Shown here piece by piece: positions 4,014 to 8,464 of a stretch of 64,000 bases of DNA. Each line of letters begins with the position of its first letter. Positions within the stretch are counted from its first letter, which is position 1. Both the position numbers and the translations under genes were made by a program. A model generated the notes under the pieces. It ran no database searches, was not told where the DNA came from, and saw only the letters and a list, made by a program, of their open reading frames with translations. Origin of the DNA: Stappia sediminis (lineage in GTDB: Bacteria > Pseudomonadota > Alphaproteobacteria > Rhizobiales > Stappiaceae); the NCBI RefSeq assembly GCF_009826895.1, contig NZ_WUMV01000006.1:372001-436000 (forward strand), given 5' to 3'.

Positions 4014-5099
4014 ATGTCTCACAACACTTTCGGCCATCTTTTCCGTGTCACCACATGGGGTGAAAGCCATGGGCCGGCGATCGGCTGCGTCATCGACGGC
4101 TGCCCGCCCCTCATCCCCCTCACCGAGGCCGACATCCAGGGCTATCTCGACAAGCGCAAGCCCGGCCAGTCGAAGTTCACGACCCAGCGGCGCGAGCCGG
4201 ATCAGGTGAAGATCCTTTCGGGCGTCATGGTGGATGACGACGGCATTCAAAAGACCACCGGCACGCCGATCTCGCTGATGATCGAAAACACCGACCAGCG
4301 CTCCAAGGACTACTCTGAAATCAAGGAGCGTTATCGTCCCGGCCACGCCGATTTCACCTATGACGCGAAATACGGCATCCGCGATTATCGCGGTGGCGGG
4401 CGTTCCTCGGCGCGCGAGACGGCGATGCGCGTTGCCGCCGGTGCTGTCGCCCGCAAGGTGGTGCCGGGGGTGCAGGTTCGCGGCGCGCTGGTGCAGATCG
4501 GCCCGCACAGGATCAACCGCGACAATTGGGACTGGGCGGAGATCGACAACAATCCCTTCTTCTGCCCGGACAAGGAGGCTGCGGCGTTCTGGGCCGACTA
4601 TCTTGACGGTATCCGCAAGAAGGGCTCTTCCATCGGCGCGGTGATCGAGGTTGTCGCCGACGGCGTTCCCGTCGGCCTTGGCGCGCCGATCTATGCCAAG
4701 CTCGATCAGGACATCGCCTCGCTTCTCATGTCGATCAATGCGGTAAAGGGCGTTGAGATCGGCAACGGTTTCGAGGCGGCGGAACTCACCGGCGAGGAAA
4801 ACGCCGATGAGATGCGCCTCGGCGCGAACAACCAGCCGGTCTTCCTGTCGAACAACGCCGGCGGCGTGCTGGGCGGCATTTCAAGCGGAGAGCCTGTCAT
4901 CGCCCGTTTCGCGGTCAAACCCACCTCGTCGATCCTCACGCCCCGCCAGTCGATCACCAAGAGCGGAGAGGAAGTCGATGTCATGACCAAGGGCCGTCAC
5001 GACCCATGCGTCGGAATCCGTGCCGTTCCCGTCGGCGAGGCCATGGTCGCCTGCGCGCTCGCGGATCATTACCTCAGGCATCGCGGGCAGGTTGGCTGA
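4014..5099 (+). CDS. aroC: Chorismate synthase
   Basis: A 361-residue enzyme catalysing the last shikimate step, 5-enolpyruvylshikimate-3-phosphate to chorismate, with reduced FMN. Signature regions are visible: the N-terminus [19 protein letters not shown], the block [20 protein letters not shown] from about residue 110, and the C-terminal PRQSI...GRHDPC region with [12 protein letters not shown]. The ATG at 4014 gives the family N-terminus; the longer ORF start would add 24 residues not found in AroC. Length is normal. It is a single gene with no other shikimate gene nearby. Confidence 0.98.
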
Positions 5100-5159
5100 G
5101 CCAGCGCTCAAGTCTTTGCGCCTTCGAATATCGTGCAGTTGCCGCATCCAAGGCAATGG

Positions 5160-5172
5160 GATACATTGTATC
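5160..5172. promoter_or_regulatory. Inverted repeat, probable toxin-antitoxin operator
   Basis: GATAC (5160-5164) and GTATC (5168-5172) form a perfect inverted repeat around ATT, 25 bp upstream of the antitoxin start; a further ATAC lies at 5181-5184. RHH antitoxins usually repress their own promoter through such sites. The role is inferred from position. Confidence 0.55.
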
Positions 5173-5197
5173 TCAATGTTATACGAGAGGCGTCGCC

Positions 5198-5473
5198 TTG
5201 GACAAGGACAAGACACAGATATCGATCCGCATTTCCCGGACATTGCTGTCGGAACTGGACAGCGTTGCCGAGGCTCTTGATCGGGATCGGACTTGGGTCA
5301 TTTTACACGCGCTGCGCGCCTATCTTGATGAAGAAGGCGCGGACATCCTGCGCGAATTTGAAGGCATTGCTTCGCTTGACCGTGGCGAGGGAGCGGACTT
5401 CGACAAAGTCTTGGGGGAAGCGGAAACGATTATTGCCGGATCTGACCGCAAATATGCGGGAAGGCGGGCTTGA
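5198..5473 (+). CDS. Ribbon-helix-helix antitoxin (ParD/CopG-like)
   Basis: About 91 residues. The N-terminus TQISIRISRTLLSELDSVAEAL is a typical ribbon-helix-helix DNA-binding fold, followed by RDRTWVILHALRAYLDE; the acidic tail would wrap the toxin. TTG at 5198 is favoured because GAGAGG ends seven bases before it and the domain begins directly after; an in-frame ATG further upstream lacks a site. The stop overlaps the toxin start (TTGA), so the pair is translationally coupled. It should neutralise the following ParE/RelE-type toxin and repress the operon. Confidence 0.83.
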   Translation: MDKDKTQISIRISRTLLSELDSVAEALDRDRTWVILHALRAYLDEEGADILREFEGIASLDRGEGADFDKVLGEAETIIAGSDRKYAGRRA

Positions 5474-5820
5474 TACAAAGGAAAGCCGCATCATTCTCGC
5501 CTGAGGCTCGAAAGTGGTTTCTTACTGAAATTCAATATCTTGCCGAGCGCAATTTGGCGGCGGCCGAAGCACTGATCGCCCGAATGCGGCGACTGCGCGA
5601 GGAGCTTGCCAAATATCCTAAGCTGGGCGCTCGCGGTGCGATTCCCGGCACCAGACGGATCGTTCTTGCCCCCTATGTCGTCACCGTACGAAGCCGCCAT
5701 GGCGGTATTGAAATTGTCGCCATTCGCCACGGCCGCCAGCGCGACGCGCTCGCACCCGATGACGCTTGGCAAGACCGCCCAAGAGAAGCCAACGAGCCGG
5801 ATATCGGTGAGGACAGCTAA
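5470..5820 (+). CDS. RelE/ParE superfamily toxin
   Basis: A 116-residue basic protein with the ParE/RelE layout: two N-terminal helices (SPEARKWFLTEIQYLAERNLAAAEALI), then a beta-sheet with GTRRIVLAPYVVTVRSR and the closing strand IEIVAIRHGRQ. Such toxins either poison gyrase or cleave mRNA; sequence alone does not decide. TTG at 5470 overlaps the antitoxin stop. The C-terminal 25 residues are polar and unusually long for the family. It forms a two-gene module inserted between aroC and ribB. Confidence 0.83.
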   Translation: MIQRKAASFSPEARKWFLTEIQYLAERNLAAAEALIARMRRLREELAKYPKLGARGAIPGTRRIVLAPYVVTVRSRHGGIEIVAIRHGRQRDALAPDDAWQDRPREANEPDIGEDS

Positions 5821-5825
5821 GAGAT

Positions 5826-5846
5826 AATTTCAGTCCCACTGAAATT
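5826..5846. promoter_or_regulatory. Perfect 21-bp palindrome, candidate operator 1 of the HTH-ribB gene
   Basis: AATTTCAGT (5826-5834) and ACTGAAATT (5838-5846) are perfect inverted repeats around CCC. A second copy starts exactly 27 bp downstream. The Ts after it could also let it act as a weak terminator for the toxin gene, but the second copy has no T-run, which favours a protein-binding site. Confidence 0.65.
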
Positions 5847-5852
5847 TTTCAG

Positions 5853-5873
5853 ATTTTCATTGCCACTGAAATT
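5853..5873. promoter_or_regulatory. Second, imperfect copy of the 21-bp palindrome (candidate operator 2)
   Basis: The right arm ACTGAAATT (5865-5873) is identical to that of operator 1; the left arm ATTTTCATT differs at two positions and the spacer at one, 18 of 21 matching overall. It ends 21 bp before the ATG of the HTH-ribB gene, well placed for autorepression. Confidence 0.6.
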
Positions 5874-5894
5874 CACCAAGACTAAATTCCGGCC

Positions 5895-7232
5895 ATGCGT
5901 CTCGACCAATGGCTCGTCCAAAATCAGGAATCCCGCTCCGGTTTTGCCCGCCGCACCGGCCTGTCGCCTGCGGCGGTGACGGCGCTGTGCAACGATCCGC
6001 GCGTGTGGGTATCCCGCGAAACGGCGGAAAAGATAGCCGTCGCCACCGGTGGCATTGTGACGCCGAACGACCTTCTTGGGCTTGCAGCGCCCAAGGATGC
6101 CGCCCCAATCAAGGAAATCATCATGTCCCAGACCCGTGTCGCCGAAGCCATCCGTGCTTTCGAGCGCGGAGAGATGGTCGTCGTCACCGACGATGACGAC
6201 CGCGAGAACGAGGGCGATCTGATCGTCGCGGCCAATGCGATCACGCCGGAGCAGATGGCCTTCATGATCCGCCACACCTCCGGCATCGTTTGCGCGCCGA
6301 TGACGCGTGAGGCCGCGCGCCGCCTCAGGCTCGACCCGATGGTCGCCGACAACGACGCGCCGCTGTCGACTGCCTTCACCATTTCCGTCGACTATCGCCA
6401 CGGGCTGACGACCGGCATTTCCGCGGAAGAGCGCTGCACGACGGTGCGCGCACTGGCCAATCCGAACGCCAGCGCCGTCGATTTCGCCCGTCCGGGCCAC
6501 GTCTTCCCGCTCGTCGCCAAGGACGGCGGCGTGCTCATGCGTTCCGGCCACACGGAAGCCGCGGTCGACCTTTGCCGCCTCGCCGGCCTTCCCGAGGTCG
6601 GCGTCATCAGCGAGCTCGTCAATGACGACGGCACGGTCAAGCGCGGCCAGGCGGTGGCGGAATTCGCCGCCGAACATGACCTGAAGATGGTTTCCGTTGC
6701 CGATCTCATCGCCTGGCGCCAACGTACCGAGCGCCTGGTGGAGCGTGTCAGCGAGCAGCCGATCGACACCATCGCCGGCCCCGCCTACGCGATCACCTAC
6801 GCAACGCCTTACGACCCGATGCACCATGTCGCCGTGGTCTTCGGCGATATCCTCGATGGGCGAAACGTGCCCGTGCGGCTCCAGCTTGAATCCGTTCTCG
6901 ACGACGTCTTCGGCGAAACCCGGCTACTGGACGACGTCATGCGCAGCTTTGCCGAACGCGGGCGCGGAGTGATCGTCTTCCTGCGCGAAGGCTCGGTGGG
7001 CGTCGCCCGCCATGCGCGGCGTCCGCGCAACGACCTCGAGGCGGCAGAGACGGAAAAGCACGCCAGCGCACAGGCGCGCGAGGAAAGCTGGCGCGAGGTT
7101 GGCCTCGGCGCGCAGATCCTGAAGGATCTCGGCGTGAACTCCATCCAGCTCCTGTCCTCCCGCCAGCGTCATTACGTCGGGCTTGAGGGATTCGGCATAG
7201 AGATCACCGAAACGGAAATCCTCGACGGCTAA
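5895..7232 (+). CDS. ribB: HTH-domain fusion to 3,4-dihydroxy-2-butanone 4-phosphate synthase with RibA-like C-terminus
   Basis: A 445-residue three-part protein. Residues 1-70 form a Cro/XRE-like helix-turn-helix (SGFARRTGLSPAAVTALCND, then SRETAEKIAVATGG). Residues about 77-280 are RibB, with DDDDRENEGDLIVAA and RPGHVFPLVAKDGG...RSGHTEAAVDL, which turns ribulose-5-phosphate into the riboflavin precursor dihydroxybutanone phosphate. Residues about 285-445 resemble GTP cyclohydrolase II but lack its zinc-binding cysteines, as in RibBX proteins. The first ATG has no clear ribosome-binding site; an internal ATG at 6123 (residue 77) is preceded by AAGGA and would make RibBX without the HTH. No FMN riboswitch is seen; two palindromes lie just upstream. 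Confidence 0.9.
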   Translation: MRLDQWLVQNQESRSGFARRTGLSPAAVTALCNDPRVWVSRETAEKIAVATGGIVTPNDLLGLAAPKDAAPIKEIIMSQTRVAEAIRAFERGEMVVVTDDDDRENEGDLIVAANAITPEQMAFMIRHTSGIVCAPMTREAARRLRLDPMVADNDAPLSTAFTISVDYRHGLTTGISAEERCTTVRALANPNASAVDFARPGHVFPLVAKDGGVLMRSGHTEAAVDLCRLAGLPEVGVISELVNDDGTVKRGQAVAEFAAEHDLKMVSVADLIAWRQRTERLVERVSEQPIDTIAGPAYAITYATPYDPMHHVAVVFGDILDGRNVPVRLQLESVLDDVFGETRLLDDVMRSFAERGRGVIVFLREGSVGVARHARRPRNDLEAAETEKHASAQAREESWREVGLGAQILKDLGVNSIQLLSSRQRHYVGLEGFGIEITETEILDG

Positions 7233-7357
7233 ATGTGAGCTTTCCAGGAAAGCGGAACCAAATCAATGCGCTGGAGCACCTCTCTGTCGCTAAGTTCGAC
7301 GCGATTTTGGCAAGACACACCCCATATTAAAAAATTAGCGGAAATAACTATATTTAT

Positions 7358-8464
7358 TCATTCATATTTCCCCTCGCATAACTCTACAAGACTACTTAAA
7401 CTTCGACGTGCTTCCTCATGCTTAGGAGCCATTTCAACAGCGGCTTCCAAAACCTTAATTGCCTCCTTCAAATTTCCATCAGCCACCAAATATTGACTAA
7501 GCAAAACCCTCAAATCAACATGGCGCGGATTTAATTTACTGGCCTCTATTACCACATCGATGCCCTCTTCAAATTGCCCTAGCCGCAAAAGCAAACGACC
7601 CAACTGAAGACTCGCCGATGCAGAATTCGGGTTTAATTTAACAGATTCCCGCGCGTAGATGGAGGATCTGCAAATTTTACCAGCTTCCTCAAGACACTTC
7701 GACCTTGTCTGTAGGTAATTTACTGATTTTCTCCTATTTTTAGTAATGTTTATATGTTCGAAACTTTTTTCGCTGAAAATATTACCTACAAGCGGCTTTA
7801 ATTTTCCAATCTCATTTAAGTACCCAACCGATGAATGCCCACTAAACGATGTCGTAATTTCGGTAATATTTGAATCTTTAAGAAACTCTTTAATAAAATT
7901 AACATGATGTTTATCTTTATTATTATCGTCATATATAAGATAATATCTACTTGTTGAGCTTGTCGTACCATTGCTTATAGAATACCTCCATTTTATATGC
8001 TTAGCATATTCACTCCATCTCGTATCGAAATCGCAATCAATGCGGTATTGCGGTGAAAAAGCTATGACTTTTGTCATATTTAAAATTTTGGAGAATGCGA
8101 TTGCTGCAAACCCTCCCATCGAAGCACCATACCCGACCCTCTCCGAATATCGCTCCTTTTCTAGCTGCTCGTCTATCTCGGCAAGAATTGATTCCGGCGT
8201 TACCTGAAACCAATGTGGCTTCGACGACTTGAAAGCGATAATATCAAAGTTGTTTTCTTGTAAAAATTTTGCACCAAACCCAGAGTCCTTAAGATTTTTG
8301 TGGTATAAAGACGTAAATGTAAATGCAATTTTTTTATTTTCTCTATTAGACCTCATGTAATCAATTTGTATATTGTTCCCTTTAAATATATTCTTCACTC
8401 TCATTCTTAATATCAACCCATTTTTTACAGACTCTCTATGAGATAGTAAAGAAACTAAAATCAT
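7358..8464 (-). CDS. Alpha/beta-hydrolase-like protein with C-terminal TPR repeats, in an A+T-rich patch
   Basis: About 368 residues. The N-terminal part has the pattern of an alpha/beta hydrolase: a strand (KKIAFTFTS), then a nucleophile-elbow-like GYGASMGGFAA, a later acidic stretch, and SGHSS as a possible catalytic-His region. The last third (from about residue 270) is two or three TPR units (NPNSASASLQLGRLLLRLGQFEEGIDVV and similar). Lys, Asn and Ile codons abound and the base composition is strikingly A+T-rich compared with all neighbours, so the gene was probably acquired. The start is uncertain: ATG 8464 or ATG 8404, neither with a good ribosome-binding site. Substrate unknown. Confidence 0.75.
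   Translation of the reverse strand: MILVSLLSHRESVKNGLILRMRVKNIFKGNNIQIDYMRSNRENKKIAFTFTSLYHKNLKDSGFGAKFLQENNFDIIAFKSSKPHWFQVTPESILAEIDEQLEKERYSERVGYGASMGGFAAIAFSKILNMTKVIAFSPQYRIDCDFDTRWSEYAKHIKWRYSISNGTTSSTSRYYLIYDDNNKDKHHVNFIKEFLKDSNITEITTSFSGHSSVGYLNEIGKLKPLVGNIFSEKSFEHINITKNRRKSVNYLQTRSKCLEEAGKICRSSIYARESVKLNPNSASASLQLGRLLLRLGQFEEGIDVVIEASKLNPRHVDLRVLLSQYLVADGNLKEAIKVLEAAVEMAPKHEEARRSLSSLVELCEGKYE

Follow-up and report, generated by a model that had tools for sequence, protein, structure and literature searches.

The closest described counterparts of the protein considered here are the RibBX proteins, which combine RibB with a RibA-like domain that lacks zinc ligands, and whose X domain is reported to modulate RibB activity in Shewanella (Brutinel et al. 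2013 and Nouwen et al. 2021, as cited in PMC10012899, available in part). The available part of that article mentions no helix-turn-helix (HTH) domain, operator, leaderless start or internal start, unlike the gene described below, in which all four are found or predicted. A RibB-RibA fusion is likewise annotated in S. meliloti, where deletion of RibBA (SMc00008) lowers flavin secretion without causing auxotrophy, according to the accessible portion of PMC9478397; the term helix-turn-helix is absent from the main text of that report. Archaea have a flavin-pathway enzyme with a second role in transcriptional regulation, RbkR, a riboflavin kinase with an N-terminal HTH (Rodionova et al. 2017, as cited in the available text of PMC8305020). 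RbkR is a different enzyme from a different domain of life, whereas the window (the whole 64-kb stretch of DNA that was analysed) encodes a RibBX protein with a Cro-like HTH. PutA, BirA and NadR are further metabolic enzymes that regulate transcription, and HTH-RibBX would be of the same kind, as far as the accessible parts of PMC6978683 and PMC5343134 go. Phage Cro/CI and YdaS-type repressors have an HTH of the same class but stand alone, whereas the HTH in the window is fused to a metabolic enzyme. The enzymes and DNA-binding folds of PutA, BirA and NadR differ from those of HTH-RibBX, and to our knowledge no conserved two-start layout has been recognized in them. The enzyme that regulates is already a known kind; a RibBX member, a co-varying operator, a two-start layout and repeated HTH fusion were not found described among the open-licence papers that our searches listed, and the HTH-RibB fusion itself not in their titles or abstract openings, with subscription journals mostly missing from the search.

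We propose that the window's ribB gene joins a RibB enzyme and a Cro-like repressor in one protein, which exerts negative autoregulation at its own promoter. The computational evidence makes this reading quite likely, with DNA binding and repression as inferences, and HTH-RibB enzymes in many alphaproteobacteria very probably control their own gene in this way. Pfam assigns to the product (Table 1) an HTH_26 match at residues 2-62, by a narrow margin (22.3 bits against a cut-off of 22; HTH_3 stays below its own cut-off in this protein), DHBP_synthase (PF00926; 1.4e-83) at residues 84-274, and GTP_cyclohydro2 (PF00925; 110 bits) at residues 283-440. In an alignment to solved RibB, the DREN and GHTEA motifs, which we take to be catalytic, are both present. 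In the alignment to 2bz0, presumably the E. coli GTP cyclohydrolase II, the stretch SEC...RCDCG, which we assume to hold the zinc cysteines of that enzyme, lies opposite ESV...RL--LDD of the RibX domain, where 0/3 cysteines are present. The Cro-like HTH joined to RibB and the RibA-like domain without zinc cysteines, both claimed in a preliminary description of this DNA, are thereby upheld, and because the zinc cysteines are missing, the open reading frame encodes a RibBX protein with an extra HTH. The cysteine-less RibX is the sole PF00925 match in the window's genome, in which no second GTP cyclohydrolase II domain was found, and the first step of riboflavin synthesis may there depend on another enzyme, as has been proposed for S. 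meliloti (PMC9478397, accessible portion). The predicted model of the HTH has five helices (pLDDT 85), and its best fold match is YdaS of prophage CP-933P, at a weak E value (0.1; probability 1.00, TM 0.73), with nothing at E <= 0.001; the HTH sequence had no match among solved chains, and the full-length structure model is too weak to rely on (mean pLDDT 69.9). Between aroC and ribB, at 5195-5820, lies a toxin-antitoxin pair consisting of an RHH protein, just under the Pfam cut-off, and a ParE-like protein, and GATACATTGTATC occurs just 5′ of this pair at 5160-5172.

Table 1. Features of the ribB locus in the window, with HTH fusions to other proteins found elsewhere in alphaproteobacteria
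Feature	Position or locus	Strand	Basis or remark
Operator-like O1, perfect palindrome AATTTCAGT CCC ACTGAAATT	5826..5846	.	Sequence; conserved in relatives
Operator-like O2, imperfect copy ATTTTCATT GCC ACTGAAATT, core 5855-5871	5853..5873	.	Over -35 box
Predicted promoter: -35 TTGCCA 5860-5865, 17-bp spacer, -10 TAAATT 5883-5888	5860..5888	+	Promoter prediction
HTH-RibBX gene, long form, 445 aa	5895..7232	+	ORF list, Pfam, relatives' alignments
Cro/CI-type HTH domain, residues ~1-63	5895..6083	+	Pfam, dN/dS, five-helix predicted model
Internal Shine-Dalgarno AAGGA, 7 nt 5′ of ATG 6123	6111..6115	+	Linker comparison
Predicted short form, RibBX without HTH, from M77, 369 aa	6123..7232	+	Linker comparison; HTH-less orthologues
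RibB domain (residues 84-274) with its DREN and GHTEA motifs	6144..6716	+	Pfam and alignment
RibX domain (residues 283-440), like GTP cyclohydrolase II but without zinc cysteines	6741..7214	+	Pfam and alignment
SucA fusion	L383		
MeaB fusion	L382		
Aspartate/ornithine-type carbamoyltransferase fusion	L380		
Glutamine synthetase-like fusions	L384, L385, L378, L340		
NarJ/TorD-like fusion	L327		

Two palindromic sites precede the gene. The conserved core of O1, TTTCAGTnnnACTGAAA, occupies 5828-5844 and is centred at about -60 from the predicted transcription start, and O2, which begins 27 bp downstream of the start of O1 and ends 21 bp 5′ of ATG 5895, overlaps the -35 box of the sole promoter predicted in 5700-6000 (1 found versus 0.1 expected). 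The earlier account of two 21-bp palindromes 27 bp apart, the second ending 21 bp before the start, was correct, with the addition that the second carries 2 mismatches. With up to 3 mismatches allowed, O1 and O2 are the window's only matches, against a chance expectation of 0.02. The 4.79-Mb genome contains one further site, which has 3 mismatches and does not rise above the reversed-pattern control; no larger regulon was found in the window's own genome at this stringency, which leaves the gene itself as the only target found there. A riboswitch or known RNA as the ribB leader was rejected after an Rfam scan of 5000-7500, which gave no match and hence no RF00050 (FMN riboswitch) 5′ of the window's ribB.

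The preliminary description had held that absence of the palindrome at orthologues that keep the HTH would refute its reading, and comparison with relatives does not show such an absence. When sites are scored over 14 informative positions of the O1 core and accepted at 12 or more, 82 of 86 distinct RibB genes with the HTH have one upstream, versus 0 of 45 without the HTH (distinct RibB sequences; L125, which has another HTH, is not counted among the 45). Four HTH-bearing genes fall short: L066 scores 11, L110 has no clear site, and L113 and L122 have related palindromes. Among main-type HTH genes, 76 of 79 distinct upstreams reach the threshold versus 1 of 1580 mononucleotide shuffles, which preserve base composition only, and the 80 named loci score at least 12 in 78 cases and at least 11 in all 80. 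HTH-less upstreams, anchored on the RibB motif, never exceed 10 for either operator type (48/48 distinct, L125 among them). Many of the rows counted are close relatives and are therefore not independent. Only 3 independent contrasts have support on the tree. The operator goes with the HTH in an average of 2.9 of them, but so small a number of contrasts cannot reach significance; in these contrasts the HTH-less upstreams were taken before the protein-alignment start, which for some loci (such as L126, L128 and L147) lies upstream of the true start. As far as such comparisons reach, the association of HTH and operator is strong, though the independent events behind it are few.

Where genes have another recognition helix, the operator is different too, with TATTAGCnnnGCTAATA in place of TTTCAGTnnnACTGAAA in an unchanged 7-3-7 layout (7-bp arms around a 3-bp spacer). 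The recognition helix SPAxVTA goes with the half-site TTTCAGT. Genes of f23, with the helix [ST]QGR[VI]SQ, have the half-site TATTAGC, which reaches at least 12 at 10 of 11 f23 loci, and the eleventh (L122, helix SAGRISQ) has CTTTAGC; the f23 operators begin at -24 to -26. In the two f94 genes the half-site is TTTAAGT or close to it, and L113 has ATTTAGT. L156 and L159 of f23, which cluster on the tree with the HTH-bearing L042 (support 99), are both without the HTH and have no site above 10. At L125 (G065), in an apparently convergent HTH-RibBX fusion, a different XRE-type HTH is joined to RibBX, and a perfect 7-3-7 palindrome of its own, GTTGCCAAAATGGCAAC (GTTGCCA AAA TGGCAAC), lies upstream.

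Exact operator sites in relatives also lie before FMN riboswitches. Among the family's riboswitch matches the 30 best were examined, of which 28 precede a gene for an EamA transporter and 2 precede ribH (DMRL synthase), as identified by Pfam. In the window's family an operator scoring at least 12 stands before 27 of the 28 EamA riboswitch leaders, the miss being L189; at L197, L198 and L210 it is located between a -10-like region and the riboswitch, not further upstream. The ribH leaders were rejected as operator targets, with no passing site at either (0/2; L165 and L201). In the genome of the window itself, L165 (C12:643646-643789) is the one FMN riboswitch that was found. We take RibN to belong to EamA. 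It is a known riboswitch-linked riboflavin transporter of alphaproteobacteria (PMC4418817, accessible part). Outside the window's family an FMN riboswitch occurs in 5 of 54 HTH-bearing genomes with an operator at 0 of those 5, so that no case of this second target is known beyond the window's family. As a control, 60 other genomes of the order were scanned; 25 of them have FMN riboswitches, 26 in all, which score 10 or less throughout, and none of these 25 genomes has the HTH-RibB fusion (control riboswitch positions for L296, L302 and L303 were guessed). A palindrome found at unrelated genes only would have refuted the autoregulatory reading, but the other conserved place found for the site is at these FMN-riboswitch/EamA genes. 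A conserved operator-like site is thus present at own and pathway promoters, a statement that is made without binding data.

We suggest that an HTH-RibBX dimer would bind O1 and O2 at its own promoter. In the dimer geometry that we infer, RibB would hold two HTHs, one for each half-site. Because O2 lies over the -35 box, binding should stop transcription, and the degree of shut-off would follow how much enzyme is present. The claim that the enzyme represses its own gene has therefore gained computational support, in that the operator tracks both the HTH and its recognition helix, while binding and repression remain inferred. RibX is a candidate ligand sensor because the X domain has been reported to modulate RibB in Shewanella, but sensing of flavin, GTP or any other ligand, whether by RibX or by the RibB site, is unproved.

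The position of O1 is evidence against simple repression. It lies at about -60, and its distance from the -35 box is nearly constant both for ribB and for many transporter genes, a place that an activator could also occupy, and the protein might be a dual regulator that activates from O1 at low protein levels and represses from O2 at high levels. O1 begins at -67 to -70 in most two-site genes, 27-29 bp from O2, and ends about 15-17 bp before a -35-like TTG, as it also does, by eye, in many transporter promoters without O2. On the other hand, where a sole site lies over the core promoter, as in f23, or between the -10-like region and the riboswitch, as at the three transporter leaders noted above, its location fits repression, and we consider dual regulation unlikely, if not to be neglected. 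The palindromes could instead be the operator of a separate transcription factor, with the fused HTH binding elsewhere or nowhere. There are no binding data for HTH-RibBX that would contradict this, and sites at EamA transporter genes are what an ordinary trans regulon would include. However, the site is missing where this HTH is missing, both at ribB upstreams (0/48 above 10) and at FMN riboswitches (0/26), and the operator sequence tracks the recognition helix. Moreover, 7 of 14 standalone relatives of the HTH (61-87 aa) have a 7-3-7 palindrome with at most one mismatch within about 40 bp of their start, the other 7 being without one. We regard a separate factor as improbable. A role of the palindromes in RNA, as hairpins or as terminators for the upstream genes, rather than as DNA sites can hardly be maintained: O1 RNA does fold (-6.7 kcal/mol, z -5.9), with T residues after it, but the stem is G-C-poor, it is not among the terminator-like predictions, and copies lie over promoters and before transporter leaders and are tied to the HTH.

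Negative autoregulation by HTH-RibBX, which we favor, is accompanied by a predicted arrangement of two start sites. The predicted +1, at about 5895, coincides with the A of ATG 5895, from which a leaderless mRNA for the long form is inferred; on the strength of sequence and promoter prediction, this is likely. Across 81 upstreams (the 80 named loci and the window), TTG is found at -37 to -34 in 78 and C at -1 in 93%, while a -10-like NAnnnT is found at -13 to -11 in only 50. A Shine-Dalgarno (SD)-like sequence precedes the first start in 2 of 81, where the background of the test is itself low (0/81 at a place further upstream where no SD is expected). The mRNA of the lambda cI repressor is also leaderless. 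At the junction of HTH and RibB, 129 of 132 distinct linkers, all but those of L104, L106 and L116, contain an SD followed by an in-frame ATG, GTG or TTG; for control windows from other parts of these genes the figure is 278 of 3113. HTH-less orthologues align from about the position of ATG 6123, so the internal start is probably the old ribBX start, which has been kept. We infer that it gives a second, HTH-less enzyme, and one mRNA should then yield products of 445 and 369 aa. The short form would supply catalysis, and mixed dimers of long and short forms would weaken repression, since a dimer with a single HTH is inferred to bind a palindrome poorly.

The preliminary description had noted that translation starting solely at 6123 would leave the HTH unexpressed. 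Position 6123 does look like a start, but as a second one, not the only one. The HTH has a median dN/dS of 0.22 and RibB one of 0.20; RibX stands at 0.45 and the linker at 0.88 (from 81 sequences, using pairs with pS 0.1-0.6, 1567 to 2286 of 3240 pairs depending on the domain), a pattern indicative of purifying selection on the HTH, which looks translated. In 37 of 37 genomes examined from the window's family the match extends from residue 1 to at least residue 441 of 445 with the HTH kept, and in the window's order a match starts at residue 1 or 2 in at least 73 of 397 genomes. An unexpressed relic HTH is consistent with the good SD before 6123 and the lack of one before 5895, but is scarcely credible given a dN/dS similar to that of RibB, a predicted promoter that puts +1 at 5895, and the retention of the HTH throughout the family. 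DNA-binding domain and enzyme are, on this evidence from sequence, one translated chain.

In-frame N-terminal fusions of related HTHs to other proteins were recovered in other alphaproteobacteria by an HTH profile search, with the partners confirmed by Pfam (Table 1). In three MeaB fusions, TTAACCAnnnTGGTTAA, exact or with one mismatch, lies directly 5′ of the ATG. No clear 7-3-7 site was found at the SucA, NarJ, carbamoyltransferase and glutamine synthetase-like fusions, where one-mismatch matches are of uncertain value, and the idea of a portable module is therefore not settled for these. AGGA, GGAG or GAGG is absent at -16 to -4 in 13/13 fusions. An internal SD-start was rejected as a general trait of HTH fusions, being present in only 2 of 13 (L378 and L327) and not seen in the SucA, three MeaB, carbamoyltransferase or other six glutamine synthetase-like fusions. 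The standalone HTHs match phage repressor families (two proteins tested), one at 50.8% to a Mesorhizobium phage repressor; a direct search for a phage source of the RibBX HTH gave no match. Small HTH genes at L364, L373, L376 and L381 (66, 76, 67 and 167 aa) have 7-3-7 palindromes starting at about -26 to -28 relative to the start codon, perfect in L381 and with one mismatch in the other three, an arrangement that resembles self-repressing phage Cro genes. Tentatively, and at somewhat less than even chances, we suggest that a phage-type Cro autorepressor has served in alphaproteobacteria as a portable module, grafted, apparently often with its operator, onto unrelated enzymes and a NarJ-like chaperone, which would make self-measuring enzymes. 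The RibBX graft would have kept the old ribosome-binding site, such that a leaderless mRNA gives both repressor-enzyme and plain enzyme, with mixed dimers tuning repression.

If autoregulation by HTH-RibBX is correct, a bacterial flavin enzyme gauges how much of itself is present and adjusts its transcription accordingly, and in the window's family its regulon takes in genes for RibN-like transporters, above their FMN riboswitch. The two-start layout would provide a testable means of balancing regulator against enzyme. Should the wider pattern also be real, the joining of a phage Cro domain to an enzyme would be a recurrent bacterial route to autoregulation.
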